Below the pieces are notes generated by a model, which was not told where the DNA came from, searched no databases, and saw only the letters and a program-made list of their open reading frames with translations. A stretch of 64,000 bases of DNA from Dokdonia sp. 4H-3-7-5. GTDB lineage: Bacteria > Bacteroidota > Bacteroidia > Flavobacteriales > Flavobacteriaceae. Of the stretch, positions 7,676 to 25,098 are shown one piece after another. Position 1 is the stretch's first letter; each line of letters starts with the position of its first letter. Location: assembly GCF_000212355.1 (NCBI RefSeq), contig NC_015496.1, positions 2,698,001 to 2,762,000 on the forward strand, written 5' to 3'. The position numbers were made by a program, and so were the translations under genes.

Positions 7676-9250
7676 TTAAATAGCTAACTGCATTAACTCA
7701 AGTGGTAAATCTACCCCTTGATTTTTAATCGTGTTGATTCTATGTAGATAAGCTGCACCTTCTAATAAATGAGTAGCAACATCTGCAACTTTTCTATTTT
7801 TAGCTTCGCTTAAATAAGAATTTTTTGTCCACTCATTAAATGCTCCCATTGCTGGGCCACACCATATTTGATAATCCATTACTCTGTCTGGAGTACCTGC
7901 ATTTGCCCAGTTGGAAGACAGTCCTAAATACCATCTAAAAATTAAGGCCATTTTGCGCTTTGGATTTCCTTGCGCTTTTTCTATTTGTTCTGGATCTCTT
8001 TCTTCAAAGAAGCTCACACAACCATCCCAAACTTGTTCTAGTGACATTTTAAAAGTTTTAGTCTCCAGTTTAAGTCTTTCTTCTGCTGGGATATCATCAA
8101 TCCCGTCATAGCGCGTGTAGACCTCATAAAGTTTTTTTGCTCTCGCACCAAACAAGGTTCCACGTTTCAACACTTGTAATTCTACACCAAGTTCAAACAT
8201 ATCTGACGCTGGTGCCATCGTGACATCTGTAGAGGCAACTTTAGAAAGTAATTCCTTTACAACATCAGAAGTTCCAGACTCTACACAGGCCTGATTAATG
8301 GATCCAGTTACTACATAAGCAGCTCCCATAGAAAAAGCAGCTAGGGCAGAGGCTGGAGTCCCTATTCCTCCTGCGGCGCCCACTCTAATTTGCTTTTTGT
8401 AATTGTAGGTTGCCTGAATTTCATCTCGCAGTTGTAAGATGATAGGAAACAACACTACCAGAGGACGATTATCTGTATGCCCACCAGAGTCTGCTTCTAC
8501 CGTAATATCATCTGCCATGGGTACTTTCTGAGCAAGGTCATATTGTTCTTGCGTTATACTTCCAGCAGCCAATAACTTTTCTAAAAATTGAAGCGGAGCT
8601 GGAGACATAAAACGTTGTGCGACTTCTTTTCTAGAAACCTTACCTATTACTTTATTGCCAATCACTATTTCGCCTTGAGCGTCAAGACTCAACCCTACCG
8701 CTCTATACTTTACAATTTGCTCAGATAAGTTCATATAAGCCGAAGCTTCTACCACCTTTACACCGTGTTCTATATATAAATTTACAGCGCCTTCTTCTAG
8801 TGCCTTTTCAATAGGACTGTGTATAAGGTTACACGCATAAGCTTGTGTAGGTAAGGCGTTCTGGATGGTTGCAATGGCTTCCTTAACACGAGCAGGAATC
8901 ATCCCAGCAGCACCAAAAGAACCTATCATCTCGTTCTTTCCTAAAGCGATTACCATATCTGTAGAGGCAATACCGTTTGCCATAGCGCCTCCTTTATAAG
9001 CGTATTTTAACTGGTAATCTTCTTTAAACGAAGTGTCCCCAAAATCGGCAGCAGTAAATGCGGGTACGATGGCTTTTAAAAACAACCCCTTTCCTTTAGA
9101 CTGGATAGTGCCAGTATTTGTAACGCCAGTGCGACCTGATAAATCCTCAACAATATAACAAGGAGTGGCAGTGTTTTTCAATTTTTCAGACATTCCTTGG
9201 ATGTCAAATGAAATCTCTCTCGGAGATCCTATCCATTTTAAGTCAATCAT
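7676..9250 (-). CDS. pfaD: PfaD-type trans-acting enoyl reductase
   Basis: A 524-residue FMN-dependent enoyl reductase of the PfaD family, close to the usual 540 or so. It is a nitronate-monooxygenase-like TIM barrel. Typical stretches include GSFGAAGMIPARVKEA, VEADSGGHTDNRPL (FMN-site region with the conserved His) and RVGAAGGIGTPASALAAFSMGA, followed by the helical C-terminal part ending near WCGPAMGAFNEW. It reduces selected double bonds in trans during polyketide-type polyunsaturated fatty-acid or related lipid synthesis. It is the last gene of the minus-strand pfa locus, but 582 bases of repeat-rich DNA separate it from pfaC, so it may have its own promoter. Confidence 0.93.
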   Translation of the reverse strand: MIDLKWIGSPREISFDIQGMSEKLKNTATPCYIVEDLSGRTGVTNTGTIQSKGKGLFLKAIVPAFTAADFGDTSFKEDYQLKYAYKGGAMANGIASTDMVIALGKNEMIGSFGAAGMIPARVKEAIATIQNALPTQAYACNLIHSPIEKALEEGAVNLYIEHGVKVVEASAYMNLSEQIVKYRAVGLSLDAQGEIVIGNKVIGKVSRKEVAQRFMSPAPLQFLEKLLAAGSITQEQYDLAQKVPMADDITVEADSGGHTDNRPLVVLFPIILQLRDEIQATYNYKKQIRVGAAGGIGTPASALAAFSMGAAYVVTGSINQACVESGTSDVVKELLSKVASTDVTMAPASDMFELGVELQVLKRGTLFGARAKKLYEVYTRYDGIDDIPAEERLKLETKTFKMSLEQVWDGCVSFFEERDPEQIEKAQGNPKRKMALIFRWYLGLSSNWANAGTPDRVMDYQIWCGPAMGAFNEWTKNSYLSEAKNRKVADVATHLLEGAAYLHRINTIKNQGVDLPLELMQLAI

Positions 9251-9320
9251 TTCTTATTTTTTATTTCAGCACTTATGTAAAATCTTAGATTTTTGATGCG
9301 CTGTATTGTTTTATAAATTA

Positions 9321-9770
9321 ATCATCGAATAAGCCTTCCCCAACCCTAAAGGGTGGCTTATTCTTTATCTTTGATTTTCGCTCTCTTTAGGGCAGGGGAA
9401 AATAAAAATCATCGAATAAGCTTTCCCCAACCCTAAAGGGTGACTTATTCATCATCTTTAATTTTTGCTTCCTTCATGGCTGGGAAACAAAAATTGGTTC
9501 AATATTCTAATTTTTTACGCTTTCGCGAAAGCGTACTCAAACTACTAGATTTCGAATAAGCATTCCCAACCCCTAAAGGGTGGCTTATTCATTTACATTG
9601 ATTTTGCTCCCTTCAGGGCTGGGGAAACAAAAAATCATCGAATAAGCATTCCCGAGCCCTAAAGGGTGACTTATTCATTTACATTGATTTTTGCTCCCTT
9701 CAGGTCTGGGGCAACAAAAATCGGCCCTACGTCTTTTTACTCCCTTCAGAGAGGGGAAAACAAAAAATCA
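9321..9770. repeat. Tandem array of ~87-bp REP-like units in the pfaC-pfaD gap
   Basis: Four related units start at about 9321, 9408, 9549 and 9634, with a fifth half unit at 9721-9770. Each has the dyad GAATAAGC...CCCTAAAGGG...GCTTATTC, then a T-rich stretch, a CTCCCTTCAGGGCTGGGG-like block and an A-tract. Lengths are 85-87 bp. Between units 2 and 3 lies a full TACGCTTTCGCGAAAGCGTA. No ORF is supported in the 9251-9832 gap. Confidence 0.8.
9516..9535. repeat. Full 20-bp palindrome TACGCTTTCGCGAAAGCGTA
   Basis: An exact palindrome inside the pfaC-pfaD repeat array, one of the longest copies of the family in the window. Confidence 0.9.
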
Positions 9771-9786
9771 ATTCTATATTTTTTTA

Positions 9787-9820
9787 GCTCCTCCTCTTTG
9801 AAGAGGAAGCTGGGAGGAGA
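9787..9820 (-). other. Hairpin just downstream of pfaC
   Basis: CTCCTCCTCTTTGAAGAGGA followed by AGCTGGGAGGAG can form nested stems immediately after the pfaC stop. It could act as a weak terminator or RNA end-protector; no clean T-run follows. Confidence 0.4.
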
Positions 9821-9832
9821 TGTTTATCTAAC

Positions 9833-12800
9833 CTAACCCTCTTGAATTCCTAGTGCCAAATCTGTCAACTGATAAATTCTTGTACCTTCATTCCAGAGAT
9901 AGGCATTTGCAATTAATACCAGTGTATCTCCTCGTTTTTCGATGGTTTTAAAATGCACTTCTAGATGCATATTTTCTACATTAACTTTAATTTGACCACG
10001 GTATTTCCATTCCGTTTTGTTGTTCTCTACTTGTACAAAACGCGGCTTTTTAAAATCCTTACCTAAATCTTGTTGTAACGCAAATAATTGCATCGCTTGT
10101 GAAATCGCCTCTACGCCTAAAGATCCTGGCATTACTGGGTCAGAATAAAAATGACAGGTAAAGAACCAGTCGTAAGTATGTATTGCTTTAGAACAATGGA
10201 TATATCCTTTACCAAACTCTCCTCCGTTTTTAACCACTAAACCACTGTCTAATAGATCTAGTTGATTTTCGGCCAAGCGGAAGGTATTTGTTTTATCATT
10301 TTCTTTATACAGCTTCATTTTTGCATAAAGAGAATCAAGCTTGATTTGGAAGTAATTTTTGGTGGTCAAGTTGTTTTGCACATACCAAGCTGCGACATCC
10401 TCTCCTTTATCGAGACCGACTTGCTGCGCTAAGGCCTCTTTAGGGAAGAATCCAAAAGAAGAAAATCCTTTATAAAATACGTGTCCATCTACCGATACTT
10501 CAAAAAGGTATTTCTGAATCACAAAACCTCCTAATGAGGTAGAAGACGTTAAAGTCGATTTGTTTGCGATTACTTTTCCTCTAAAATCTGTGCCGGTAGG
10601 CAAGTCAAACATTTCTCCGTCACCATCTAGATTTCTAAAGTATAAATCCTTGTCTGGAAACTGTAGCGTACTTCCTAAATATGCACCTAGTAATCCACAA
10701 GGTTGTAGAGCGATTTCCATCAATACTGCATACGGCATTGTCATAGAGGCATTTTGCTTGTAATACCAAGCATCTTGAGGCACATCATATTCTGTCCAGA
10801 TATTTGTTGGCTTTGAAAAATCAAAACGTTTTCCATCAATCTTAATCACACGGCTTACCACTTGTAAGTCGGTATTAGGTTGACGCGACAACGCTCTATT
10901 ATCATACACCGCATATTCTGGACCAAAGCAATCTGCAAGTCTACCTAAAGCAAATGTTTCAATATCGTTCTCGTTTAAAAGTACATTCTCGGTTATTTTT
11001 TTAGGTTGCTCTAAGTATTTTGGATTGTCTTTTTCTCTTAGTTGTAGTCCTAGATTTTCAAAATGAACGGTAATCACACCATCTACAATAATCTCTAAAT
11101 CACCTATTACATAAGGATCAGGCAATAAGTCAATTTCCTTAATCACTAGACGATATACTAATTTTTTATCAGTAGGCGTCACCTCTTTTCTACATCTTAC
11201 TTTTTGCGGAAGGTCATAAATAGGCTGGAAACGAGCATCTTTTTTAAGACGTTGTAACCCAAGCATCATCATAAAGAAACGCAATAAGTTACCGCCGCCT
11301 TCTGCTTGTAAAGAACCCGCTAGCACTTGGTCATCTCTAAAATGACAAGGAAAATACCAATCGTCTGGACTCAGGTCTTTTTCTGCTATAATTTCTCCTA
11401 AACCATAAGCTCCTCCGTGTACATCTGCTTTGGTAATGCGATCTAGCATCAACATTTTTTCTGGAGCTAGACGTATAGATTCATTTCTACCATTTGGGAA
11501 ATATGAAATATCATCAAAACATTTATGCGCATCTCCATTGATGAGATGTCTTAAATCTTCTATGTCAAAAGCAGTTTTCTTGGTGGTCAAAAAAGGAATG
11601 AATTTTTTCTTTTCTACACCTGCCAGTGCTTTCTTTTCGCTGTCTGTGTATACCACTCCGTTTCCTTTACTCAATTCTTCATCAGTAAAGAAACCAGCAA
11701 CACCATTGGTCATTTTTAAGACCATACGATCTTCTACAAAACACTCGTAGCTAAAGAAAAACAGCAAGTTTCCACCATTTCTTACAAATGAATTGATAGA
11801 TATATCATAGCGTAATGTTTGCCCTTCAAAAGGCAAATCATCTAGAAAAGTAAGCGTACAATCTAGAAGGCGGTACACATACTCTCCTTTATTTTCAAGA
11901 TCAATTCCCAGATAAGAAATCAACATCAAATCACACTGCCCAGACTCTACAGAGACTGCCCAAGGAATTTGGGTGTCGGTTGCATAGCCAGAATTGTATG
12001 GGATATCATATTCGGTTTGCATTGTAGAAGGCTTGTATTCTCCTAGTTTTGCATCAAGACCTGTTACTCTACTCACCAATAAATATGGGTCCATAGGTAA
12101 CATTACTCGCCTTTTATACTGATCAATCACATTGTATTCTGCTCCAAAAACATTACCTATTTTTCCTTCAGAAAATTCAATGAGATCTTCTTTGGTGAAA
12201 ATGATGTTCTTATCTTTTAGATGATTTGGATCATTGTAATCTTGTAATTTCAAACCATTCTCTCCGATTTTAGTCGCAGTTTTTGGCTGTTCTGTATCTA
12301 TCATACTAGCTATTTTTTCTACTCTATGTGTGGTGGTTGGTTTTACGCTTTCGCGAAAGCATATACTTGCATCTTCAGTTTTTTCTAGAGAAGCTGTTTT
12401 TTCTTTTCGTTTGATTGTGGCAAACTGTTGCTTCATCTCCTCAGATAATAACACGTCATATACAGGGTTACCACCTGTTGTTACTTTTTTAGTGAATCGT
12501 TTTTTGACGGGTTCTTGATTAGCATTAGGATATAGCAAGCTCAAATCAATGTCGATCCCGTTTGAAATTAATTGTGCTAGACACTCGTATAATGATTGTA
12601 TAGAACTTGTGCCTTTTTTATCAATCGCACAAGCGGCGTGATTGTTTTGATCTAGTGTATCTTTTATCCAGCCAGTACAGGTACTATTAGGACCAAGTTC
12701 TACAAACGTGCTAAATCCGTTGCTAGACATTCTTTTCGCGAAAGCGGGAAAATCAACGGTTTTATAGCACACTTTTGTTGAATTCTCTGCAATTGTGAGC

Positions 12801-15800
12801 GAATCCTTAGGGATTTTCTCTCCTGTTAAGCTAGAGTAAAAATCAATTTCTGGCTTATTTTCTAATGGGAAATTATGCATTTCAATCAATCCGTCATACT
12901 CTTTTTTACAGAACTCATTGTGGATAATATTTTGAAAAGGCACTAATACTGACGGACAATTAAGCACAGCAATCAATGCTTCACATTGGCTTTTATCACC
13001 AGAAACGATTAATTCTTTTTCGGAGTTTACAAAAGTGATTGACACTTTATCAAAAGCTGAGATTTGTGTTACTACTTTTTCTTTAGTTTCTAGTAAAATC
13101 CAACTCTGCCATCTTGCTTTTGCTTCTTCTGAGCTGATGTTCCATTCTTCGGCTAGGAGTTCTAGATTACCAGAAAACTTGTTTTTAAAAATAGGGGAGT
13201 TGCGGAAAACTTTTGTTCCCTCACCTGGATTCCAAATACCAAAGGAATACCACATGGAGCTACATTCTCCCATAGAATAACCCATCGCAGCTTTGGGTTG
13301 TACACCAAAATAAGAGGTCAATATGTGCGTGTATAAGGTAGAGTACAATACTCCTGCAGACATCATAGAGATAGCGTCTCCTTGAATATTGGGAGAAGGC
13401 GTAGCGCTGTCTTGCTTTTTTGGGAATAAATAGTCCAAGCCAAAGAAGTCTTTCAAGTTGGGGATACGATTTTCAAAATCACTTAACAGATTAGGAAAAA
13501 ACTGAAATAAATCTTGCCCCAAGCCCTCATAAGTAGTTGCCGAACCTGGATATACAAATGCCAAATCGCCTTTTGTACCACTCGGATTTGGGCTAAAGAA
13601 AGAACCGCTAGGTAATTTTATATCTGTATTATCTGCAAAGGACTGCTCGAGTTTTTTATCAATAAAAACGATGTCTTGCGCTATCGTTTTTGTGGTTGAC
13701 GCAATAAGAACAATACTATAGGTTGCTTTTGTGGTCGCAGCTTTATCAAAACAGGCTTGTGCAACAAAAGCTAAGTCATTAGTAAATATATCTTCATTAA
13801 GTTGCTGTAACTGTTCCTTAAGTTCTGCTGGCGAATTTCCTTTTAAAATAAATAAATGCTTCTTTAAGAAATTGTCAATATTGAGAGGTTTAGGTTGTGT
13901 AAATTCTGATAATTTTACACGAGAATGTTGACTCAAATTAACTAGCGCTTGTCTGGGTTGTTCTGTTTCATTAACCCAAGGTCGTGATAGGCTAGGGAAG
14001 TAGTAATTACTGTTTTTGAAAGCATCATTTTTCGCCGATTGCCAATTTGGAATTCCTGGAATAAATTGATGATATACACATAAGGCTGTTTTTACAATAG
14101 AAGCGAGTCCAGCCGTTGCAAACGTATGACCAATGTTTGTTTTTACAGATCCTAAGGCAATTTTACTGACAGGATTAATAGCTAATAGCCGTTCTTGTTC
14201 TAATTGGTTTTCGTGATCAAATCCAGAAGCTACAAGCTCTTGTAAGGCGATATTCTCAGTTGTGGCGATATCTCCTATAGCTTCAATTTTTGCAAAGACT
14301 GTATCGTTCTCATCAATGCGGTCACTTGCTTTCAATACAATCGCAGAGGCTCCTTCTCCTATTAACCAGCCATAATCATCTACATTAAAAGATAAACTTG
14401 GTTGTTTATTTTGATTTATGCTAGTCACTAGATTACGCAACAATACCGCTTCCATACTTGCAGAAAACTCGACGGCTCCCACAACCACAGCATCTACTTC
14501 GCCTAGAGAAAGCATATTTTGTGCAACTTCCAGAGCTCTTGTGGTACCGTTATCACCGTTTGTAATCGTAAATGAAGGCCCATTAAAATCCCATAAAGCA
14601 GAAATACGACTCGACATAATATTACCCACAAAACTAGTGTGCTGACTAGGCGTTTGTACATTGCCTATCTGGTATAATATATTGCGACACTCGGCAAGTA
14701 ATGTTTTTTTTTGTGTTTCCTCTAGTGCAATATCAGCACTGTCCAATGCCTTGTCTAATTGCCACTGACTGTCCCAACGCGCTAGATAATGATGTATCGC
14801 AAGTTCAGGATTCATAGCAATTAGCACCGCTACGTTTTCTCCTCTTTTTAGATTAGATTTTTGAATCGCTTGATCTGCAACTTTGAGAATAAGTGCCTGT
14901 TGTGGCTCCATAGTGCTAATCTCATTAGGCTGGATTTTATAGCGCATCAAATCCATATCAAAGTCCTCTATAAAGTTTCCTTTAATAGGATTTTGAGTAT
15001 TTAGACCAAACGTAGCGAGCAGTTCGTCATTTTTCTCAAAGCCCTTCCATCTCGTAGATGGCATTACAGAGAAGTGCTGTTTCCCATTAAAAATGGATTG
15101 ATAAAACGTTTCCAGATTATCACAATCTCCAAAATGAACTTCCATACTCGTGATGGCCATTTCTTTTAATGAGACATCCGTATGTGTGTTAGTTTCCTTT
15201 TTTTGATGACTCTCAACAACAAGGTGTGCATTAGTTCCTCCAAAACCAAAAGAATTTACTGCCGCTTGTTTATAATTTGTCTTCCATGCTAGCGGCTCTT
15301 CTATGATCTGATCTTGTGTAAACCAGCCGTTTTCAGATTGTATCGCCGTTTCCATATTGATTCCTGGAGGAATACTATTATGCTCCATAGAAAGCAATAT
15401 TTTCATCAAGCTAGGCATTCCTGCCGCCGTAAGCATATGCCCCATATTTGACTTTACAGAACCTAGACGTACTTTCTCTGGATTGTTACCAAAGAAAGTT
15501 TCGAGCGAATTGATTTCTGTAACATCACCCAGCGGCGTTCCCGTCGCGTGGCATTCTATGTAAGAAGTGTCCTCTTTTTTAATGGTGCCATTATACGCTC
15601 TTTCATAAGCAAGTGTTTGACCTTTTGGGTTCGGACTCAATAAGAATTTACCTGCGCCATCGTTTGATAATCCTATTCCAGAAATAACACCTATGATATT
15701 ATCTCCATCTCGCTCTGCATCAGATAAACGTTTTAATAGAATCATTCCAGCCCCTTCAGAAGATACGAGTCCAGCAGAATCTTTATCTAGCGGCGAGTAT

Positions 15801-16537
15801 TTTTTATCGTGTGCCGCATAGGCGTGAAAAATTGAAAAACCCATGTGGATAAACAATTGATCAGACGAGCAAACAGCTCCTGCAAGCATCATATCTGATT
15901 TGCCAGTTAATAGCTCATCACACGCCATTTTTATGGCATATAATGAAGAAGCACACGCAGCATCGAGATCAAAATTGGTTCCTTTTAAACCAAGGGTATT
16001 CTTCACTAATTCTGAAACATCACCTTCAATAGGATTGTTTTCTGGAATCTGAAATTCAGTTGCTGGCATTTCAAAATCATCGACTTTCAACAAGGTTTTA
16101 ATTCCTTTTTCAAGTGTTTTTGTATAGACAGGCGCAAGAATCTTGTGAGAAGACTTTGTGGGAAATGATAAGTTCCCAAAAATAACGCCGCAACGATCTA
16201 AGGCTTCCTCATTTTTCCAATACCCTCCGTGCTGCAAGGCATCTTTAGTTACCTGTAATCCCCATTGGTACATTTGGTCTAAGTTGTCTAAATTCTCAGT
16301 ACCAAAATCTGCGCTATTAAAACTATAATCACGTATATATCCACCACGTAGGGAATAACAACTATCTATAGTTCCTTTATCTTTTTTATAAAATAATTCT
16401 GGGTCTGCGCCAAAATCATCTTTTGTTGCCATACCGGTTAAGTCCTTTTTATCCATAAGGTTATTCCAAAACTCTTGAAGTGTTTTAGACCCTGGAAAAA
16501 GGGATGACATACCAATAATTGCTATTTTTTCTTTCAT
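9833..16537 (-). CDS. pfaC: PfaC-like PUFA synthase subunit with fused AT (KS-CLF-AT-DH-DH)
   Basis: A 2234-residue multidomain protein. KS1 (about 1-450) has active Cys195 in DAACASSL plus ECHATGTPLGD and GSVKSNMGHM. A second KS (about 465-900) has Asp662 in place of the Cys (TNGDNGTTRAL), so it is a chain-length-factor-like domain. An acyltransferase (about 990-1300) has Ser1088 in GYSMGE. The C-terminal third holds FabA-type hot-dog dehydratases, with catalytic His1732 in FPCHFRDDQVLAGS and His2129 in FTCHFYSDPVMPGS. In Shewanella-type systems the AT is a separate protein, PfaB; here it is built in. CGCTTTCGCGAAAGC palindromes lie inside the coding region at 12346 and 12734. It is co-oriented with pfaA, 61 bases downstream of the KR-DH stop. 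Confidence 0.93.
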   Translation of the reverse strand: MKEKIAIIGMSSLFPGSKTLQEFWNNLMDKKDLTGMATKDDFGADPELFYKKDKGTIDSCYSLRGGYIRDYSFNSADFGTENLDNLDQMYQWGLQVTKDALQHGGYWKNEEALDRCGVIFGNLSFPTKSSHKILAPVYTKTLEKGIKTLLKVDDFEMPATEFQIPENNPIEGDVSELVKNTLGLKGTNFDLDAACASSLYAIKMACDELLTGKSDMMLAGAVCSSDQLFIHMGFSIFHAYAAHDKKYSPLDKDSAGLVSSEGAGMILLKRLSDAERDGDNIIGVISGIGLSNDGAGKFLLSPNPKGQTLAYERAYNGTIKKEDTSYIECHATGTPLGDVTEINSLETFFGNNPEKVRLGSVKSNMGHMLTAAGMPSLMKILLSMEHNSIPPGINMETAIQSENGWFTQDQIIEEPLAWKTNYKQAAVNSFGFGGTNAHLVVESHQKKETNTHTDVSLKEMAITSMEVHFGDCDNLETFYQSIFNGKQHFSVMPSTRWKGFEKNDELLATFGLNTQNPIKGNFIEDFDMDLMRYKIQPNEISTMEPQQALILKVADQAIQKSNLKRGENVAVLIAMNPELAIHHYLARWDSQWQLDKALDSADIALEETQKKTLLAECRNILYQIGNVQTPSQHTSFVGNIMSSRISALWDFNGPSFTITNGDNGTTRALEVAQNMLSLGEVDAVVVGAVEFSASMEAVLLRNLVTSINQNKQPSLSFNVDDYGWLIGEGASAIVLKASDRIDENDTVFAKIEAIGDIATTENIALQELVASGFDHENQLEQERLLAINPVSKIALGSVKTNIGHTFATAGLASIVKTALCVYHQFIPGIPNWQSAKNDAFKNSNYYFPSLSRPWVNETEQPRQALVNLSQHSRVKLSEFTQPKPLNIDNFLKKHLFILKGNSPAELKEQLQQLNEDIFTNDLAFVAQACFDKAATTKATYSIVLIASTTKTIAQDIVFIDKKLEQSFADNTDIKLPSGSFFSPNPSGTKGDLAFVYPGSATTYEGLGQDLFQFFPNLLSDFENRIPNLKDFFGLDYLFPKKQDSATPSPNIQGDAISMMSAGVLYSTLYTHILTSYFGVQPKAAMGYSMGECSSMWYSFGIWNPGEGTKVFRNSPIFKNKFSGNLELLAEEWNISSEEAKARWQSWILLETKEKVVTQISAFDKVSITFVNSEKELIVSGDKSQCEALIAVLNCPSVLVPFQNIIHNEFCKKEYDGLIEMHNFPLENKPEIDFYSSLTGEKIPKDSLTIAENSTKVCYKTVDFPAFAKRMSSNGFSTFVELGPNSTCTGWIKDTLDQNNHAACAIDKKGTSSIQSLYECLAQLISNGIDIDLSLLYPNANQEPVKKRFTKKVTTGGNPVYDVLLSEEMKQQFATIKRKEKTASLEKTEDASICFRESVKPTTTHRVEKIASMIDTEQPKTATKIGENGLKLQDYNDPNHLKDKNIIFTKEDLIEFSEGKIGNVFGAEYNVIDQYKRRVMLPMDPYLLVSRVTGLDAKLGEYKPSTMQTEYDIPYNSGYATDTQIPWAVSVESGQCDLMLISYLGIDLENKGEYVYRLLDCTLTFLDDLPFEGQTLRYDISINSFVRNGGNLLFFFSYECFVEDRMVLKMTNGVAGFFTDEELSKGNGVVYTDSEKKALAGVEKKKFIPFLTTKKTAFDIEDLRHLINGDAHKCFDDISYFPNGRNESIRLAPEKMLMLDRITKADVHGGAYGLGEIIAEKDLSPDDWYFPCHFRDDQVLAGSLQAEGGGNLLRFFMMMLGLQRLKKDARFQPIYDLPQKVRCRKEVTPTDKKLVYRLVIKEIDLLPDPYVIGDLEIIVDGVITVHFENLGLQLREKDNPKYLEQPKKITENVLLNENDIETFALGRLADCFGPEYAVYDNRALSRQPNTDLQVVSRVIKIDGKRFDFSKPTNIWTEYDVPQDAWYYKQNASMTMPYAVLMEIALQPCGLLGAYLGSTLQFPDKDLYFRNLDGDGEMFDLPTGTDFRGKVIANKSTLTSSTSLGGFVIQKYLFEVSVDGHVFYKGFSSFGFFPKEALAQQVGLDKGEDVAAWYVQNNLTTKNYFQIKLDSLYAKMKLYKENDKTNTFRLAENQLDLLDSGLVVKNGGEFGKGYIHCSKAIHTYDWFFTCHFYSDPVMPGSLGVEAISQAMQLFALQQDLGKDFKKPRFVQVENNKTEWKYRGQIKVNVENMHLEVHFKTIEKRGDTLVLIANAYLWNEGTRIYQLTDLALGIQEG

Positions 16538-16564
16538 TATTTCTTGTTAGATGTGGCTTTTGTG

Positions 16565-16586
16565 GAGGCGCAATGCAATGCGCCTC
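16565..16586 (-). other. Intercistronic hairpin between the KR-DH ORF and pfaC
   Basis: GAGGCGCA (16565-16572) and TGCGCCTC (16579-16586) form an 8-bp GC-rich stem with loop ATGCAA. No T-run follows, so it is more likely an mRNA processing or stability element, or a mobile REP-like remnant, than a terminator. Confidence 0.5.
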
Positions 16587-16598
16587 TACAGTTTGCCA

Positions 16599-18965
16599 TT
16601 ACCAAACTAATTCTCTTGAAACAGTTAATCCGGCACCTTCCGTAAACAAAATAACATCTTCGTTATCGTCATAAACGGTACAGTCTGCAATCATTTTCGT
16701 CTCCGTGTTTTCTTGAATTTTTATGTGTACGTAGTAACTTTTATTAGCTTGAATTTCTCCATACACCATCCCTTTCAAAGTCTGTAATGGCAGGCTATTA
16801 GCGCCATTATGATATTTTTGTACCCAAACCACCATTCCTTGATATTGAATATCTAAGAAGAATGCATTCAAACTCGTACTAGGGAACTGACCTTGATCTT
16901 CATAAGAAACCGCTGGAGCTTTACATTTTAATAATACCTGCGATTCATCCATCGCAATAACCTCCTCTATGCCTTGGTAAAATGCACCGTGGAATAACGA
17001 ACCATCTTTATAAAAAGTAGCTCCGTCTATTTTATTCTCAACTAGTTTTGGTGTTTTGAATGTTGGTTTTTCAGTACGCTTTCGCGAAAGCGTAACTGTA
17101 GCTCTATAATGATTGAGTGGTAGTTTTGCTCCTTTACTGTACACGCTTACTTCACAGACGATGGTGTCTACTGTTTTTAATTGTTCTTTCACTTTCGTGA
17201 AATACACCTCTTTTTCAGTCCCGTCAAAAACAATTCCTTTGAAAAGTTTTACATCTTCTATGCTTGCCAGTTTATAATCTGGAAATAGTTTCACACAAGA
17301 ATCTGCCATCCAAGCCGTAGCATTTACCATAGGTAATACAGGACTTCCCTGAATTACGTGATGTTGTAAAAACGCATTCTCTTTGAGACTCAAGTTTCTT
17401 TGAATCGTATGCGTTTTTAGATCTCCAGAAATATCTGAAATACCAGCTGGTAATGTACCGCCGATAATCACTTGAGATTGGTTATCATATGCTCCGTTTA
17501 ATTCTTGCACAAAACGAGCAGCGCCTCCAGGGTGATTTACTAGAGAAACACCAGCCTTTTCAAACATTTTTTGTAGCTCTGGACTTACCATTCCGCCTTC
17601 CCAAGCTCCCCAGTTTATTGCGGTAACTTTAGTGTTAGGGTGGTTTGTACTAAATAAATGTGCGGCGGTACTTAAAATTTCATTTGCCATTGCATAATCA
17701 GACTGCCCTACGTTTCCAAAAAAACCAGCAACAGAGGAGAACATAATGAGATGTTTCAATTCATTGATATTAACCATTTTTAGAAGGTTTAATAAACCGT
17801 CCAATTTCACGGAAGTGACATTGTCAAAAATTTCTTCTGTTTTATCTTGAATGAGTTTATCTGCCAGTCGGCCAGCACCGTGTATGATGCCTGTGATTTT
17901 ACCCCATTGCTTTTCAATCTTTAGCAATTCTGGCTTGATGGTTAAGTTTGTCACATCACCAGCTACATATACTGCATCTCCACCAGCTGCTTTGATTGTA
18001 GCAATAGTTTCTTCTATTTCTTTTTTGGCAACATATTTATTGAATAGACTATTTAATCCTTTAATAGAAACTTTCTCTCCGCTAGCTTTCAGATCCTGCA
18101 TAATCGCGTTCTTAAGCTTGGCAGGATTGTTTTCGGTTAACGCATACGCTGGCAATTCAAAATCTAAGGAAGATCTTCCCAACAAGATAAATTTAGTTTT
18201 AAAAGCTGCGTTCATCTCCTTGATACAGGTTGCCGTAACACCTCTACCGCCTCCAGCGACTAAGAAAACATCTTTATCTGTCACCGTTTGTTGGTAATCA
18301 TCTGTCGCAGCAACTTCATTAGGTGTAACCTTATAGGTCATTCTTCCTGTTTCATTAATGGCTACATCTACATAACGAACATCTGCATCGTGTAATTCTA
18401 AAAATAAATTCGTAGCAATTTCTTCTGGGGACAATTCAGGCTGAGCATCAATGGCTCTACAAAAAACAGGAGACCATTCTAAGTTCATACACTTAGTTAA
18501 TCCTGATAATCCGCCTGCGATGATAGAAATATCTGAACGTTTATCCATCCCAAATTTTCCATCTAAACGAGAAACCGTCATAAAGGCTGTGCGCTGTGTT
18601 TTGCTCGTTGTATTTAATGGAGCTTGTAAATGCTTTGCCAATAAGAATGTGGCTTTTAATAAGGTGCGTTCTATCGCAAAATGTTGTGTGAAATTATGAC
18701 CAGAAAAGGTGAAATGTGGGTGTAAATAAATAAAAGCGCCAATTTCATTGTTGGCTAAGATGGTATCTACAGCGTTCTTAATATTTTGATCGTTTATTTC
18801 GGCAATCGAAATTCCATCTTTAATGGACGTATTCTTTTTGATTGCGTTAAATTGAAGTACAATAACTTGATGTCCTTCGTTCTCTAATTTAGTTTTTACA
18901 GCAAGTGTCAAAGGACCTCCTTCATCTGTTATGACAACAGGTTTTAAAGAAGAAATATCTTGCAC
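16599..18965 (-). CDS. pfaA: PfaA C-terminal part: ketoreductase-dehydratase (in -1 frame to the upstream ORF)
   Basis: 788 residues are counted from a GTG at 18965, the only usable start codon in the frame. The frame is in fact open further up, through 19118, where it meets the A10 run of the upstream ORF. The KR has nucleotide-binding VAGGGRG (236-242), GIIHGAGRL, catalytic Ser411 region (IMFSSVAG) and Tyr424 (SDYAMAN), then INWGAWEGG. A PKS-type dehydratase follows with the HxxxGxxxxP motif at His536 (HVIQGSPVLP). The 49 residues upstream of the GTG contain SVPRKSIGLKFIPR, which resembles the linker that precedes the KR in one-piece PfaA proteins (from memory). No ribosome-binding site precedes the GTG. 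I read this as the distal half of pfaA, reached by -1 slippage. Confidence 0.9.
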   Translation of the reverse strand: MQDISSLKPVVITDEGGPLTLAVKTKLENEGHQVIVLQFNAIKKNTSIKDGISIAEINDQNIKNAVDTILANNEIGAFIYLHPHFTFSGHNFTQHFAIERTLLKATFLLAKHLQAPLNTTSKTQRTAFMTVSRLDGKFGMDKRSDISIIAGGLSGLTKCMNLEWSPVFCRAIDAQPELSPEEIATNLFLELHDADVRYVDVAINETGRMTYKVTPNEVAATDDYQQTVTDKDVFLVAGGGRGVTATCIKEMNAAFKTKFILLGRSSLDFELPAYALTENNPAKLKNAIMQDLKASGEKVSIKGLNSLFNKYVAKKEIEETIATIKAAGGDAVYVAGDVTNLTIKPELLKIEKQWGKITGIIHGAGRLADKLIQDKTEEIFDNVTSVKLDGLLNLLKMVNINELKHLIMFSSVAGFFGNVGQSDYAMANEILSTAAHLFSTNHPNTKVTAINWGAWEGGMVSPELQKMFEKAGVSLVNHPGGAARFVQELNGAYDNQSQVIIGGTLPAGISDISGDLKTHTIQRNLSLKENAFLQHHVIQGSPVLPMVNATAWMADSCVKLFPDYKLASIEDVKLFKGIVFDGTEKEVYFTKVKEQLKTVDTIVCEVSVYSKGAKLPLNHYRATVTLSRKRTEKPTFKTPKLVENKIDGATFYKDGSLFHGAFYQGIEEVIAMDESQVLLKCKAPAVSYEDQGQFPSTSLNAFFLDIQYQGMVVWVQKYHNGANSLPLQTLKGMVYGEIQANKSYYVHIKIQENTETKMIADCTVYDDNEDVILFTEGAGLTVSRELVW
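17075..17094. repeat. Full 20-bp palindrome inside the KR-DH coding region
   Basis: An exact TACGCTTTCGCGAAAGCGTA. It falls in the stretch between the ketoreductase and the end of the dehydratase domain, so the protein tolerates it. Confidence 0.9.
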
Positions 18966-19028
18966 GAAAACATCAACTCTAGGAATAAACTTTAAGCCAA
19001 TTGATTTTCTTGGTACACTATGAAAATT

Positions 19029-19074
19029 AGTAGGTAAGGAGAATTCTTGTTGTACTGTATTTTCCTTACCTACT
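19029..19074 (-). other. Perfect 12-bp inverted repeat downstream of the pfaA slippery run
   Basis: AGTAGGTAAGGA (19029-19040) and TCCTTACCTACT (19063-19074) are exact complements with a 22-nt loop. In the mRNA the stem begins 36 nt after the A10 run and 19 nt after the in-frame stop. It lies inside the -1-frame coding segment. The spacing is longer than the 5-9 nt usual for frameshift stimulators. Confidence 0.75.
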
Positions 19075-19093
19075 TTGTTGTTCTGATCTTGAG

Positions 19094-22000
19094 TTACGCT
19101 AGGCTCAGGCTTTTTTTTTTACTTGAAATACCAGCTTTTGCAGAGATGTAGTCAACAATTTCTTGTAAGGTTCTAAGCTCTGTTAAGTCGTTAGGGTTAA
19201 TGTCTGATAGCTTGTCAGATTGCTCTGTAATCGCTCCAAATATCTCCACACGTTTAATAGAATCGATCCCTAGATCTGCTTCCATATCCATGCTTAATTC
19301 TAACATCTCTGATGGATATCCTGTTTTATCTGCGACTACGCTTAACATCAAGTCTAGCATTTCTGAATTACCCTCGTTAGGAGCTGCTGTCTCAACAATA
19401 GGAGTAGAGAATAAATCGGTGCCAACAACTTCTGGAGAAGCTGTGACTGCTGTTTCAACTGTTGCAGCCGTTGTGCTTATTCCTGCTTTTACAGAGATAT
19501 AATCTACAATTTCTTGTAATGTTCTAAGCTCTGTTAAGTCGTTCGGATTGATGTCTGATAGTTTATCTGACTGTTCTGTGATTGCTCCAAATATTTCCAC
19601 ACGTTTTATAGAATCGATCCCGAGATCTGCTTCCATATCCATGCTTAGTTCTAGCATTTCTGCTGGATATCCCGTTTTATCTGCTACAACGCTTAACATA
19701 AGGTCTAGCATTTCTGAGTTGCTAGAAGTTGTTGTTGTCGTTTGTGCTGCAGGAGCGGCAACAGGAGCGGTAACAACCTCTTTTGCCCTTTGTGCAACTG
19801 GAGTTGCGGTTGTACGTATTCCTGCTTTTGCAGAGATATAATCTACAATCTCTTGCAGTGTTCTAAGCTCTGTTAAGTCATTAGGGTTGATGTCTGATAG
19901 TTTATCTGATTGCTCGGTAATCGCTCCAAAAATCTCCACACGTTTAATAGAATCGATCCCTAGATCTGCTTCCATATCCATGCTTAATTCTAACATCTCT
20001 GCAGGATATCCAGTTTTGTCAGCTACAACGCTTAACATAAGGTCTAGCATTTCCGAGTTTCCAGCGGTTGGTGTCGCTTGTGCTACTGGAACAGTAACAG
20101 GAGCTGCGACTACTTCCTTTATAGTTGGAGAAACTGGAGTTGCTGTTGTACTTATTCCTGCTTTTGCAGAGATATAGTTTACAATTTCTTGTAATGTTCT
20201 AAGCTCAGTTAAGTCATTAGGATTGATGTTTGAAAGCTTATCAGATTGCTCAGTAATTGCTCCAAAAATCTCCACACGTTTAATAGAATCGATGCCTAGA
20301 TCTGCTTCCATATCCATGCTTAGTTCTAACATTTCTGCAGGATATCCTGTTTTGTCTGCTACAACGCTTAGCATAAGATCTAGCATTTCTGAGTTACTAG
20401 TGGCAGGAGCAGCAGTTTCAGATACACTAGAAGGAGTAGGGGTTGCAACATTCTTTTCTACACTAGGCTGCACAGCAATAGGAGTCACAATCGGTTTTGT
20501 CACAGCAGCTTCAGGAGCTGGAGTGTCAATAGATAATGGAGCTGTAGGAGCTTCTAGAATATTTTCATCTGGGGCAAAGTTTCCAGATAATAAGTTTAGT
20601 AATTGTGCGGTTTGTTTATTTTGTTCCATCAAGATAGTTTGGAACATATCTAATGTTTTAGATTGATTCTCTTTGATGCCTTCTATGGCACTTTTAATAA
20701 CATCTACCATCATATCTTCTTCTGTTTCTTGGTCTGTAGGATCTTCTTCACTTGTGTATGTAGGAACTGCGTTTATCACTTCTGAGATAACTTCTATTTC
20801 CTTAATATCTTCTTCAGTTTTAATAATATCTGTGGCGCAACTTACTTTGAACCCGTTATTCAACACATCTTTATAGGCTTTTTGCGTTGCTGGACTCACA
20901 TAGTTATTCCCTGCAATTTTAACGGCTACTTTAGGCTCAGTTACAGGCTTCTTTTCTTGACGAGCATTGCGATCAATTGCATTTAATTTACACCCTAGTA
21001 CTTGTAGCTGTATTGCTGCTTCTCTGATTTGTAAGTCACTGTCTTTTGTTGCTTTTGCATTTGTAGTAACTACAAAATGCTCTTTGTCTGCCAGTATATC
21101 TTTTACCAGGTTTGTAAGAATAGACTTAGGTCCAAACTCAACAAAAACCCTCGCTCCTGCAGCATACATATTTTCGATCTCGCTCTTAAAGTCAACTGAA
21201 TTTAAAATATGCTGCCCTAAAATTTTCTTTATCTCACTTGGATCAGTTGGATAAGAATTTCCAGTAGAATTTGAGTATACCGGAATGGTAGGGCTAGTAA
21301 ATTCTATAGTCTCTATACTTTTTTCAAATGGTTTTTGAGCATGACCTACACAATCTGTGTGGAAGGCTGCAGAAACAGGTAATAAGATAGAGCGGTAATT
21401 TTTACTATCTAATAGTGTCTTAGCTTTAGTAATACCTTCTGTGGTTCCTCCTAATACTATTTGACTCGAAGAGTTGATATTGGCAATAGAAACATCTGGT
21501 ATAGCGGTAATCAAAGGTTCGATTTCTGAAGCCGAAGCTTTTACAGCTAGCATTGTACCCGCGTCACCACTTGTATTTTTACCTGCCATGGCATTTCCAC
21601 GTGCGATAGCAAGCGTCATATAATCATCTTGACTTATAACTCCAGAAGCACAAAGAGCTGTAAGTTCACCAAAACTATGTCCAGCGACCATATCACTTAT
21701 AAAACCGGCATCTTTGAATACATTGTAGTACCCTAAACTAATAGCCCCGATTGCGGGTTGTGCAAACTCAGTATTAGTAATGTTTTTTTCTAAAATAGCT
21801 TTATCCTCTTCTGTGAATACAGGTTTTGGATATATTTTATTTGCTAAATCATATCCTTTTTTGGCATCAAAATCTGCAATGGTTTGTTGTATCCTTTCAA
21901 AACTACTGGTAGCTTCTTTTGCCATGTTTGCATACTGCGAACCTTGACCTGAGAATAATGACGCAACTTTTGTAGTGCTTGAAATTCCATTAGGTCTAAA

Positions 22001-23713
22001 GAACACGCCTCTAGGGTGAGACCAAGCATTCTTATTGCTTTCTAATTGTTTGATTGCAATTTCTAGTTTTGATATACAATCAACTAGAGACTCGGCTACA
22101 AAGCCTAAACGAGCTTCACTTTGTTCTGCTGTGCCTTCCTTTGAAATTTCTTTTAAATTGTAAAATGCAGTGTTTCCTTCTTTGCTATTTAAGGAAGTAT
22201 GAGCATTTTTAAGAAGCGTTAATAAGTCTTCTGTATTCGCTCCTTTAATGTATATACTATGAAAAGATTGATGTATTCTATCTGTAAAAGAATTTTTCTT
22301 TTCATATTCCTCCATTGCAAAATGGACATTAACACCACCAAAGCCAAAAGCAGACAATCCCGCTCTACGAGGAACCCCATTTTTAAACCAAGGTCTTGTT
22401 TCTGAATTTACGTAAAAAGGAGAGTTTTCTATTCCAAATTTGTCATGCGGCTTTGTAACATTTATGGTGCCAGGTAAAACTTTATGATATAGCGCTAAGG
22501 CTGCTTTAATCATTCCGGCTGCACCTGCAGCAGCTTTGGTATGTCCTACTTGTGATTTTACAGAGCCTATCCCAATATTATTTTTTGTCGCATTGTTTTT
22601 ACCAAAAACCATTGACATAGACTCAAATTCTGCAGCATCACCAGCTCCAGTAGCAGTACCATGACCTTCTATTAGTCTTACGGTAGAGGCATCATAACCT
22701 GCTTCATCATAGGCGCGTTGCATAGCTAGCGCTTGTCCTTGTGGACGGGGAGCGTAAACCGATTTATAGCGACCGTCACTAGAAGAACCTACACCAGTAA
22801 GTAAACCATAAATTCTATCTCCATCACGCTCTGCATCTTCTAATCTTTTTAAGACAAGCATTCCTACACCTTCGCCTATTAACATACCATCAGAGTCTGT
22901 ATCAAATGGACGAATACTTCCCTTACGAGAGAATGCTGGCGTTTTAGAAAACGACATGTACATAAAAGGAGAATTGTCTGTATCGACCCCTCCTGTTAAC
23001 ATCATATCACATCTTCCTTCTATTAACTCAGAAACAGCCATTTTTACAGCTGAAAGCGAGGCGGCACAAGCAGCATCTACTACAGAGTTAATACCTCCTA
23101 GATCAAAACGATTTGTAATACGGCCAGAAATAACGTTACCTAACATACCTGGAAAAGAATTTTCATTCCATCCTATATATGCTTTCTTCATTTTATCTAC
23201 AATGTGAGGAATGTCTGTATCGCTTATTCCACTACTTCTCAAAGCAGCTTCCCAAATAGGAGCTTGTAATCTAGAAGTAAGTGGGGTAATCAATTTTTGT
23301 CCACCACCTACACCGAGAATTACTCCTGTTTTTTCTTTTAATAACGCTGTAAACTTATCAGATTCTCTACCATAACCCGCATCCTCAAATGCATCTCTAG
23401 CAGCTATTAAAGCTAGTAATTGAGAGGCATCTGTTACTTCCAAAATATTAGGAGGCAATCCAAATTCCATTGGATTAAAGTCTACATCGGGAATAAAACC
23501 ACCTTTTTTGCAGTATGTTTTATCTGCAACCATAGGATCTGCATCGTAATAATCTTCTATTTTCCAACGCGATGCAGGAACATCTACTATACTATCTTTT
23601 TGACTTATAATATTATTCCAAAACTGCTCTACATTTATTGCATCTGCAAACATAGCAGATAAGCCAATAATTGCTACAGGCGTTTTTTTGAGTGAACTAT
23701 TAATAGTGTCCAT
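19094..23713 (-). CDS. pfaA: PfaA N-terminal part: KS-MAT-4xACP
   Basis: 1539 residues to the in-frame stop. The KS (about 8-460) has Cys216 in VDAACAASL, EGHGTATGAGD and GSVKSQVGHTKAAAG. The malonyl/acyl transferase (about 580-890) has Ser680 in AGHSFGEL and the GQGSQYANM motif. After a Glu/Thr/Pro-rich linker come four acyl carrier domains, each with the LGIDSIK phosphopantetheine site, at Ser1143, 1255, 1368 and 1485. The ACPs are nearly identical and separated by Ala/Pro/Thr/Val linkers. Normal PfaA continues into KR and DH; here the frame ends in SSKKKSLSLA just after an A10 run and the rest lies in the -1 frame. It is preceded by 6 bases and the tetR gene, so it is co-transcribed with it. 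Confidence 0.95.
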   Translation of the reverse strand: MDTINSSLKKTPVAIIGLSAMFADAINVEQFWNNIISQKDSIVDVPASRWKIEDYYDADPMVADKTYCKKGGFIPDVDFNPMEFGLPPNILEVTDASQLLALIAARDAFEDAGYGRESDKFTALLKEKTGVILGVGGGQKLITPLTSRLQAPIWEAALRSSGISDTDIPHIVDKMKKAYIGWNENSFPGMLGNVISGRITNRFDLGGINSVVDAACAASLSAVKMAVSELIEGRCDMMLTGGVDTDNSPFMYMSFSKTPAFSRKGSIRPFDTDSDGMLIGEGVGMLVLKRLEDAERDGDRIYGLLTGVGSSSDGRYKSVYAPRPQGQALAMQRAYDEAGYDASTVRLIEGHGTATGAGDAAEFESMSMVFGKNNATKNNIGIGSVKSQVGHTKAAAGAAGMIKAALALYHKVLPGTINVTKPHDKFGIENSPFYVNSETRPWFKNGVPRRAGLSAFGFGGVNVHFAMEEYEKKNSFTDRIHQSFHSIYIKGANTEDLLTLLKNAHTSLNSKEGNTAFYNLKEISKEGTAEQSEARLGFVAESLVDCISKLEIAIKQLESNKNAWSHPRGVFFRPNGISSTTKVASLFSGQGSQYANMAKEATSSFERIQQTIADFDAKKGYDLANKIYPKPVFTEEDKAILEKNITNTEFAQPAIGAISLGYYNVFKDAGFISDMVAGHSFGELTALCASGVISQDDYMTLAIARGNAMAGKNTSGDAGTMLAVKASASEIEPLITAIPDVSIANINSSSQIVLGGTTEGITKAKTLLDSKNYRSILLPVSAAFHTDCVGHAQKPFEKSIETIEFTSPTIPVYSNSTGNSYPTDPSEIKKILGQHILNSVDFKSEIENMYAAGARVFVEFGPKSILTNLVKDILADKEHFVVTTNAKATKDSDLQIREAAIQLQVLGCKLNAIDRNARQEKKPVTEPKVAVKIAGNNYVSPATQKAYKDVLNNGFKVSCATDIIKTEEDIKEIEVISEVINAVPTYTSEEDPTDQETEEDMMVDVIKSAIEGIKENQSKTLDMFQTILMEQNKQTAQLLNLLSGNFAPDENILEAPTAPLSIDTPAPEAAVTKPIVTPIAVQPSVEKNVATPTPSSVSETAAPATSNSEMLDLMLSVVADKTGYPAEMLELSMDMEADLGIDSIKRVEIFGAITEQSDKLSNINPNDLTELRTLQEIVNYISAKAGISTTATPVSPTIKEVVAAPVTVPVAQATPTAGNSEMLDLMLSVVADKTGYPAEMLELSMDMEADLGIDSIKRVEIFGAITEQSDKLSDINPNDLTELRTLQEIVDYISAKAGIRTTATPVAQRAKEVVTAPVAAPAAQTTTTTSSNSEMLDLMLSVVADKTGYPAEMLELSMDMEADLGIDSIKRVEIFGAITEQSDKLSDINPNDLTELRTLQEIVDYISVKAGISTTAATVETAVTASPEVVGTDLFSTPIVETAAPNEGNSEMLDLMLSVVADKTGYPSEMLELSMDMEADLGIDSIKRVEIFGAITEQSDKLSDINPNDLTELRTLQEIVDYISAKAGISSKKKSLSLA
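19111..19120 (-). other. A10 slippery run joining the two halves of pfaA
   Basis: On the mRNA strand the 0-frame reads AGT AAA AAA AAA AGC CTG AGC CTA GCG TAA. The stop is 15 nt after the run. The -1 frame has TAA at 19121-19119, directly before the run, and is then open without interruption to 16599. So both frames can be linked only inside these ten A residues. A AAA AAA is a canonical -1 slippery heptamer in the correct phase. The joined product is 1534 + 837 = about 2371 residues. Confidence 0.85.
19130..20400 (-). repeat. Four tandem ACP-coding repeats
   Basis: The phosphopantetheine Ser codons lie at 20285-20287, 19949-19951, 19610-19612 and 19259-19261, giving periods of 336, 339 and 351 bp. 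The ~240-bp ACP parts are nearly identical in protein and DNA; the linkers vary. This is a natural substrate for unequal recombination. Confidence 0.9.
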
Positions 23714-23719
23714 ATTTTC

Positions 23720-24337
23720 TTATTCTATAGTTAAGTAAAGATGCTTTTGTTTTTCAACTTCCAAAAGACCTTTGTCAGTACATAATCCTCTCAAGTAAGC
23801 AACCATAATACCTTCGGTAAGTCTAGCTTTAGAAAAATGTTCTGATGGAAAGACTTTGTTGTTATTACATAATTTCAAAAGAGTTTGAACCGTAGCCATC
23901 GTAACTTCTGGGTCCAAGTCTTTCCTGAATAACCCATCTTTTACACCCCATTTAGATAAATAGAGTAACTCTCGAAAAGCAAACTCTGCATTCTTTTTAT
24001 AGGAGTCTTTTAATATACTAGGGTAATATTTAAGTACCTCTTTATAAAAGTTAGCGTTGCTGTAATCTGCTCTTTTTAAAATCTGTTGCTGAATCATACC
24101 CATTGCTTCAATAGCAGAGCTAGAGGTATTAATGATATCGTCATTTTTAGTTCTGATTCCTGCAAGATATTGCTCTACACAAGCTTGCATTAAATCAGTT
24201 TTGTCTATAAAGTGATTATAGATAGTACGCTTAGAGGTACTCAACTCCTTACTGATATCTGCCATGGTTACAGATTTTACTCCATTTTTTAAATATAGTT
24301 GAGTTGTTATCTCTATGATATGTTCCCTGGTAATCAT
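23720..24337 (-). CDS. TetR-family regulator of the pfa locus
   Basis: A 205-residue TetR-type protein. Residues about 4-50 form the HTH (REHIIEITTQLYLKNGVKSV, then SKELSTSKRTIYNHFIDK). The rest is a helical ligand-binding domain with no recognisable ligand signature. Its stop is 6 bases before the pfaA start, so it is the first gene of the pfa transcript. Upstream lies a strong inverted repeat (24361-24391) that also precedes the divergent phosphopantetheinyl transferase gene. The simplest model is autorepression plus control of both directions, possibly responding to an acyl or lipid signal. This is inference. Confidence 0.92.
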   Translation of the reverse strand: MITREHIIEITTQLYLKNGVKSVTMADISKELSTSKRTIYNHFIDKTDLMQACVEQYLAGIRTKNDDIINTSSSAIEAMGMIQQQILKRADYSNANFYKEVLKYYPSILKDSYKKNAEFAFRELLYLSKWGVKDGLFRKDLDPEVTMATVQTLLKLCNNNKVFPSEHFSKARLTEGIMVAYLRGLCTDKGLLEVEKQKHLYLTIE

Positions 24338-24435: not shown

Positions 24436-25098
24436 ATGTTTTTCAACAATAATAAAATGGGAGAAATTTGGATCGTTAATTTTTCTAATAACAGTCAGCA
24501 ATTCATCGATGAGGAATTATTAAAAAATTTACCTGAGTCCACAGTCAATAGGGCATTAAGGTATCTCAATAAGGAAAGTTTCTTAAGCTTTATAACGGGA
24601 AGATTACTATTGAAAAAAGCAATTTCAGAAAGTGAATATTCAAGTTTTTCAATAGAAAATATCACGTATTCTGATAAGGGAAAACCAAGTTTCACTAATG
24701 TCAATTTTTCAATATCGCATAGTAATGGGTACGTAGTTTTAATTTTTGGTACCGTTTTTCAGGTGGGCATCGACATTGAGAAGAGGAAGGATATAGATTT
24801 AAAGTTATTTAAATATCTCTTCACGGATTTAGAGTGGAGCGATATTAAAGAAGATAATAATCCATTAGATAGATTCTATTGGTATTGGGTAAGGAAAGAA
24901 GCTTTACTCAAAGCAGTAGGTTGTAGTTTGAAGGAAATAAAGAAACTTTTCGTTTTTGAAAAACACGGTATCTATAATAACGAACGATTTTATTTTGAAG
25001 TCTTCAATTTTCATTCTGATTATAATGGTATAGTTGCAATGGAGAAAGAACTATTCCTAAAAGTTAGATGTGTTGAATTAGAAGAGTTATTAAATTAA
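24436..25098 (+). CDS. Sfp-type 4'-phosphopantetheinyl transferase (PfaE-like)
   Basis: A 220-residue enzyme that transfers phosphopantetheine from CoA to the Ser of acyl carrier domains. The family signatures are present: magnesium-binding GIDIEKR (about 110-116) and FYWYWVRKEALLKAVG (about 150-165), plus the upstream SISHSNGYVV CoA-site motif at about 92-101. The ATG at 24436 is used; another ATG at 24457 (MGEIW) is equally plausible, and no clear ribosome site decides. It is divergent from tetR-pfaA and shares the operator. It is the obvious activator of the four PfaA ACPs, the PfaE role in known systems. Confidence 0.92.
   Translation: MFFNNNKMGEIWIVNFSNNSQQFIDEELLKNLPESTVNRALRYLNKESFLSFITGRLLLKKAISESEYSSFSIENITYSDKGKPSFTNVNFSISHSNGYVVLIFGTVFQVGIDIEKRKDIDLKLFKYLFTDLEWSDIKEDNNPLDRFYWYWVRKEALLKAVGCSLKEIKKLFVFEKHGIYNNERFYFEVFNFHSDYNGIVAMEKELFLKVRCVELEELLN

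Follow-up and report, generated by a model that had tools for sequence, protein, structure and literature searches.

A probable programmed -1 frameshift site between the ACP and KR domains of the split PUFA synthase gene pfaA in Dokdonia sp. 4H-3-7-5 and related Bacteroidota

The pfaA gene of the PUFA synthase cluster of Dokdonia sp. 4H-3-7-5 lies in two reading frames, and comparison with related loci suggests that it is very probably a single gene carrying a programmed -1 frameshift site. A sequence-only reading of this DNA had proposed that -1 slippage restores a one-piece PfaA and that the A-run and the split should be compared in relatives. The comparison strongly supported this proposal: a -1 split directly after the last ACP was found in 47 of 54 non-redundant loci, the window counted, and an in-phase heptamer of the form X XXY YYZ lies in the frame overlap of all 47. 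The window is the whole stretch of DNA analysed, 64,000 nucleotides in length, and all positions refer to it unless stated otherwise. At the level of sequence, the comparison demonstrates the position, phase and conservation of the site, its replacement by other heptamers and, in the lineages with short sites, a hairpin behind it.

The pfa locus and the junction within pfaA

The genome of Dokdonia sp. 4H-3-7-5 is a single 3.39 Mb contig. The 0-frame ORF of pfaA (19094-23713, minus strand) encodes a short PfaA of 1539 aa with the order KS-MAT-4xACP; Pfam assigned KS, AT and four ACPs to this first piece, and KR and a weak DH to the second. The ORF finder begins the second piece at a GTG (16599-18965, minus strand, 788 aa, with Pfam support), although this KR-DH part is most likely translated only within a frameshift fusion. 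The same strand carries pfaBC (9833-16537), with two KS-type domains, two FabA-like DH domains and a weak AT under the Pfam cut-off, and pfaD (7676-9250), in which Pfam recognised the PfaD_N domain of an enoyl reductase. The arrangement corresponds to that of Type D pfa clusters, with KS-AT-ACPn and KR in separate frames, a fused pfaBC and a host in the Bacteroidota, the AT on pfaBC being below the Pfam cut-off. A gene for a TetR-type regulator (23720-24337, minus strand; Pfam) immediately precedes pfaA on that strand, the two ORFs being 6 bp apart, and a pfaE-like phosphopantetheinyl transferase gene (24436-25098, plus strand) is divergent. The genome contained one KR-DH match at E<=1e-30, all 7 candidates having been scored; two other matches within the genome were weak, and the listed one spans 91 residues.

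The two pieces of pfaA meet at an A10 tract (19111-19120, minus strand) directly behind the fourth ACP, which holds A AAA AAA in phase. In the 0-frame the junction reads AGT AAA AAA AAA AGC CTG AGC CTA GCG TAA. The split at A10 is as the sequence-only reading described it. The stop TAA (19094-19096, minus strand) begins 14 nt past the run, and the TAA that closes the -1 frame upstream straddles the start of the run (19119-19121, minus strand). For KR-DH, the -1 frame alone is open, beginning within the run: it extends for 839 codons on the minus strand, from 19118 as far as the KR-DH stop (16599-16601). A-runs of eight or more are not rare across the window (15 overlapping matches on both strands, against a shuffle mean of 28), and the A10 run alone is therefore unremarkable; what stands out is its position, its phase and its conservation. 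An A9 run in pfaBC (14704-14712) was considered as a comparable slippery site and rejected, its -1 stop lying 63 nt on.

Conservation of the split in relatives

A scan of genome contigs yielded 34 pfaA loci. Added genome searches covered 299 genomes of the family to which Dokdonia belongs, 248 of the family of the Saprospiraceae locus L011 (44 matched) and 18 of the same genus (6 matched). In a class sample searched at E<=1e-30, 7 of 395 matched (the window, five genomes of family f24 and one remote match), and in a phylum sample searched at E<=1e-60 the window itself was the only match among 395, with no further case. In total 86 loci were entered, 11 of which were skipped as truncated, remote or without an ACP anchor; the 75 usable loci comprised 54 non-redundant ones, including the window, which span Flavobacteriaceae, Saprospiraceae and other Bacteroidota. 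One of the skipped loci (L093) was judged by eye to be split with A10.

The 47 split loci (27 from the contig scan and 20 from the added searches, many of them MAGs) are relatives and not independent samples, with KR-DH identities down to 47%. Cultured strains among them are Psychroserpens jangbogonensis, Maribacter antarcticus and Patiriisocius marinus. The remaining seven of the 54 loci comprise five f24 loci and L020, which are fused, and L023, which is split with a +1 offset.

An A10 run is a typical place for a sequencing or assembly error, and the sequence-only reading had named such an error as the main rival. The same split recurs, however, in 47 non-redundant loci, including one on a contig of 7.3 Mb (L079) and those of two same-genus, single-contig genomes with the identical A10 split (L112 and L113). 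It also occurs at sites without a homopolymer (L092, L094 and L116). The comparison thus rules out error as the cause of the split for the family, and we give a homopolymer error practically no chance. L023, found in one MAG, may be a single such case: it has an A9 run, and one extra A would make it match the other loci, so that its run was probably miscounted. Either L023 has a miscounted A10, which is the likely reading, or it is a broken or switched-off copy.

The A10 run is present in all four Dokdonia loci that hold the junction (L005, L039, L112 and L113), which represent different species; a 96%-identical Dokdonia MAG was matched in the contig scan and recurs as a same-genus genome.

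The slippery heptamer and its replacement

At the heptamer density of the upstream parts of these ORFs (132 per 37,250 codons), 2.3 of the 47 split loci would carry an in-phase heptamer by chance, a figure whose contrast with the 47 found is no formal probability, because the loci are related. The 0-frame stop follows the heptamer after 0-7 sense codons. Long runs occupy the site in 38 of the 47 loci (A9 in 13, A10 in 24 and A11 in one) and contain no interrupting G, even though upstream 26% of lysine codons are AAG; four of the 38 end in AAG. The other nine loci have short sites, which are A AAA AAG in seven (for example, TCA AAA AAG GGA TAA) and G GGA AAG in two (GTG GGA AAG TAG/TAA).

Changes of tract length are compensated in the relatives with A9, A10 and A11, in that the -1 phase is retained in all 38 long-run loci. 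This bears on phase variation, in which a change of tract length would switch PUFA synthesis on and off within a population, as the sequence-only reading had suggested. The long A-run, the out-of-phase A9 of L023 and the fused genes with A11 in L020 and L118 would suit such a switch. The suggestion is nevertheless unsupported, given A10 in each of the four Dokdonia junction loci and a -1 phase kept by the A9, A10 and A11 relatives other than L023, and short sites are unable to vary in tract length. We therefore regard phase variation as very improbable.

The A9-A11 runs, A AAA AAG and G GGA AAG occupy the same position, so that across divergent species the heptamer has been replaced rather than lost. 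An A-run exchanged for heptamers of equivalent form points to slippage of tandem tRNAs on the ribosome. Short heptamers are too short for slippage by RNA polymerase and are suited to tandem tRNA slippage, whereas runs of A9-A11 are long enough for transcriptional slippage, as in Thermus dnaX. If the polymerase slipped on the A-run in Dokdonia and the other carriers of A9-A11, mRNAs with one extra A would encode the fusion. In favour of this alternative, 38 of the 47 split loci carry 9-11 A, and the hairpin described below is mostly absent from the long-run loci. Transcriptional slippage would require a run of about nine or more in all members; the window itself has one, but short heptamers occupy the site in nine of the 47 loci, as A6G or G GGA AAG, and G GGA AAG is also found in Persicobacter (L116), while the hairpin lies mostly at ribosomal spacing. 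Slippage by the polymerase is accordingly an unlikely explanation, although it deserves more weight than any other alternative considered here. The ribosome would more likely be the agent in Dokdonia as well, with some chance left for polymerase slippage on its A10.

A hairpin downstream of the short sites

A 30-nt stem-loop begins exactly 6 nt past the heptamer in eight of the nine short-site loci, a spacing within the 5-9 nt or so expected of a stimulatory structure, and seven of the nine reach p<=0.05 against 60 shuffles. The stem of L038 (p 0.083) is shared with L017 and L018. The exception is L085 (p 0.40), which keeps 3 of 9 pairs and whose 60-nt fold also begins at 6 nt. Six distinct stems could be compared: pairs 1, 2, 6 and 7 are formed in all six and pairs 4 and 9 in five, all with changes on both sides, and the match vanishes when the stretch is slid by one base. 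The independent changes are few, since the stems derive from few lineages. A short heptamer followed at 6 nt by a compensated hairpin bears the marks of programmed -1 ribosomal frameshifting, as far as these can be read from the letters.

No hairpin was detected downstream of the site in the window (z +0.6; the anchored stem was equalled by 25% of shuffles), and the long-run loci had no consistent stem, 5 of 38 reaching p<=0.05. Of the 47 downstream segments, 10 had z below -2, as did 17 of the 226 control segments. Some A9 and A10 loci (L016, L021, L028, L105 and L014) also have very stable folds behind the site (z to -5.4), partly at other spacings.

The segment between the slip site and the GTG

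The KR body is preceded by a single possible start, a GTG at 18963-18965 (minus strand). The sequence-only reading had recognised this lone GTG at 18965 but placed it 49 codons into the -1 frame, where we count 51; the next start codon is a TTG 18 codons further. If pfaA1 and pfaA2 were two genes, KR-DH would be translated separately, by internal initiation or re-initiation. The published description of Type D clusters is of this kind in the sections that define them (PMC3098273, PMC4882568), the window does contain the GTG, and in many relatives a GTG or TTG is present somewhere in the stretch, at places that vary. Against two genes, the GTG at the position of 18965 is shared by just three of the 47 split loci, the window counted, and five of the 47 lack any ATG, GTG or TTG over the tested stretch, which runs from the slip site as far as about codon +25. 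An in-phase heptamer in all 47 loci would also be needless.

The segment upstream of the GTG argues in the same direction. It had been taken for a plausible ACP-KR linker, and the stretch from slip site to GTG (18966-19118, minus strand) is indeed conserved coding sequence in the -1 frame, with a disordered linker followed by the first KR strand (residues 37-45 of P0002). Residues V35, R37, P46 and D49, all of which precede the GTG (V52), do not vary among 37 sequences, and in the last 24 codons before the GTG the variable sites of nine Flavobacteriaceae are distributed 7/2/17 by codon position. An AlphaFold model of the -1-frame KR-DH (mean pLDDT 86.3) aligns with polyketide ketoreductases, for example 5d2e and 2fr0; residues 1-24 are below 50, and a confident strand at 37-45 lies ahead of the GTG at residue 52. 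According to this model, a protein initiated at the GTG would be without that strand. Conserved coding and a KR strand upstream of the GTG disfavour a separate KR-DH gene, and we consider the two-gene explanation improbable.

Fused genes, Persicobacter and outlying loci

The split is not universal, since eight loci (L069-L073, L020, L117 and L118) are fused in the 0-frame. Those of L020 and L118, in two genomes, have A11 with a -1 stop 18 nt on. The fused f24 genes retain A10, and the -1 stop follows 6 nt on in L069, L072 and L073 and 35 and 56 nt on in L070 and L071, respectively. By themselves these nearby stops are weak evidence of a mirror-image switch, in which the short product would come from the -1 frame, as the background rate of a -1 stop within 15 nt is 36% of tested codons.

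In Persicobacter psychrovividus (NZ_AP025293.1, L116) the gene is split at CCG GGA AAG ATC ATG GCC TGA, with KR-DH in the -1 frame and a stem at +6 that is equally stable in 3.5% of 200 shuffles. Persicobacter sp. JZB09 (CP012852.1, L117) shares the G GGA AAG and has a stem at +5 (0.5% of shuffles), with the frames swapped: KR-DH continues the 0-frame, whereas the -1 frame ends with GGG AAA GCT TAA. The KR-DH identity for Persicobacter is 43%. The heptamer and stem retained in JZB09 are better evidence of a mirror switch than the nearby -1 stops. The PUFA synthases of both strains are on plasmids, of 1.07 Mb (L116) and 1.58 Mb (L117), and the PLSDB gene table has no gene there.

In a quick tree of 57 KR-DH proteins, with L023 scored as split, the fused or split state needs three changes and the short or long site four. 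The Flavobacteriaceae KR-DH form one starred clade that groups with L011 among the Saprospiraceae, which suggests that the pfa cluster (7676-23713) was transferred between families.

One of the skipped loci, a pfa-like locus of another Flavobacteriaceae genome (L044, minus strand) with a KR about 30% identical, ends its ACP at ATT AAA AAA AAA AGC TTG ATT TAG, the run being at 249-258 of the reverse complement; its KR opens in the -1 frame and a KS-type ORF follows. Because the layout of ACP, A10, stop and -1 KR is the same, a second, remote type of synthase shares the site.

Proposed mechanism

Ribosomes coming off the last ACP would encounter A AAA AAA. Some would keep the frame and stop five codons later, producing KS-MAT-ACP4, and others would slip back one base into KR-DH, producing KS-MAT-ACP4-KR-DH, of 2371 aa by count. 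We infer that the two products are most likely made in a set ratio. The slip site would set the ratio of short to long PfaA, and hence how much ACP/KS the PUFA synthase has relative to KR/DH, with the short PfaA adding KS/ACP capacity without KR-DH.

The ratio itself may be the conserved purpose, in that Bacteroidota PUFA synthases would need a KS-MAT-ACP 'carrier' together with the full KS-MAT-ACP-KR-DH, whichever is the default. We propose this tentatively, giving it slightly less than an even chance, because the Persicobacter pair shares G GGA AAG and a hairpin with the frames swapped, because the fused f24 and BB22-type genes retain A10 or A11, and because L044 has the same site. If the proposal is true, PfaA is a megasynthase whose processing domains are made optional by frameshifting, and whether iterative synthases need extra carrier-only subunits becomes testable. 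Perhaps, as a speculation, the frameshift ratio is tuned by temperature.

The number of ACPs is reported to set PUFA output (PMC5067506). According to the same paper, E. coli with the pfa genes of Aureispira made very little arachidonic acid, and output rose 48-fold with a one-piece Shewanella PfaA as subunit A (PMC5067506). A fusion that is absent or poorly made in E. coli could explain the low Aureispira output, among other explanations.

The dnaX gene of Dokdonia sp. 4H-3-7-5 (L120, G000:C1:3256387-3257409) reads GAA AAA AAA AAT at about codons 365-366, with a -1 TGA directly behind, an arrangement that resembles tau/gamma frameshifting. With an in-phase A AAA AAA and a -1 stop in dnaX, Dokdonia may use poly-A slippage elsewhere too.

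Comparison with known systems

The sequence-only reading had taken PfaA to be known as a single polypeptide, but descriptions of a split PfaA in Bacteroidota go back to 2011: the Type D section of Shulse and Allen (2011; PMC3098273) divides pfaA into pfaA1 and pfaA2. In the passage of a 2016 review on Aureispira marina, the KR region is likewise separate from pfaA (PMC4882568). The clusters described in these sections (Psychroflexus torquis, Ulvibacter SCB49 and A. marina; PMC3098273, PMC4882568) resemble the Dokdonia cluster in having KS-AT-ACPn and KR on separate ORFs, a fused pfaBC and hosts in the Bacteroidota, the likeness of P. torquis and A. marina being one of published description and not of junction sequences. 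They differ in being published as two genes with five ACPs (Shulse and Allen), whereas Dokdonia has four ACPs and probably one gene with a frameshift. Among the matches listed from open-licence PMC literature, none linked pfaA, PUFA synthase or fatty acid synthase to frameshifting, and the main text of the GeneTack survey (PMC3711429), so far as it was available, contains neither 'ketoacyl' nor 'fatty acid'. The split of pfaA and the class of mechanism are thus already known, and the frameshift reading appears to be new. If it is true, the published account of pfaA as two genes in Type D clusters is overturned, and a lipid/polyketide megasynthase joins the chromosomal genes of bacteria in which -1 frameshifting is conserved.

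In E. coli dnaX a -1 frameshift yields the tau and gamma products. The short-site pfaA genes resemble it in their A AAA AAG, in a hairpin about 6 nt downstream and in two predicted products with a common N-terminus, and JZB09 has the dnaX polarity, with a long 0-frame and a short -1 product. In contrast, pfaA usually has the short product in the 0-frame and the long one in the -1 frame, encodes a lipid megasynthase and carries A9-A11 runs mostly without a hairpin. Transposases of the IS3/IS1 type slip by -1 at A AAA AAG or an A-run and produce a long fusion from overlapping frames; the -1 slip proposed for pfaA would make a long fusion in the same way, in a chromosomal metabolic gene and not a mobile element. 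In Thermus thermophilus dnaX, transcriptional slippage on an A9-type run gives two products, whereas relatives of the Dokdonia pfaA use short heptamers that polymerase slippage would not explain.
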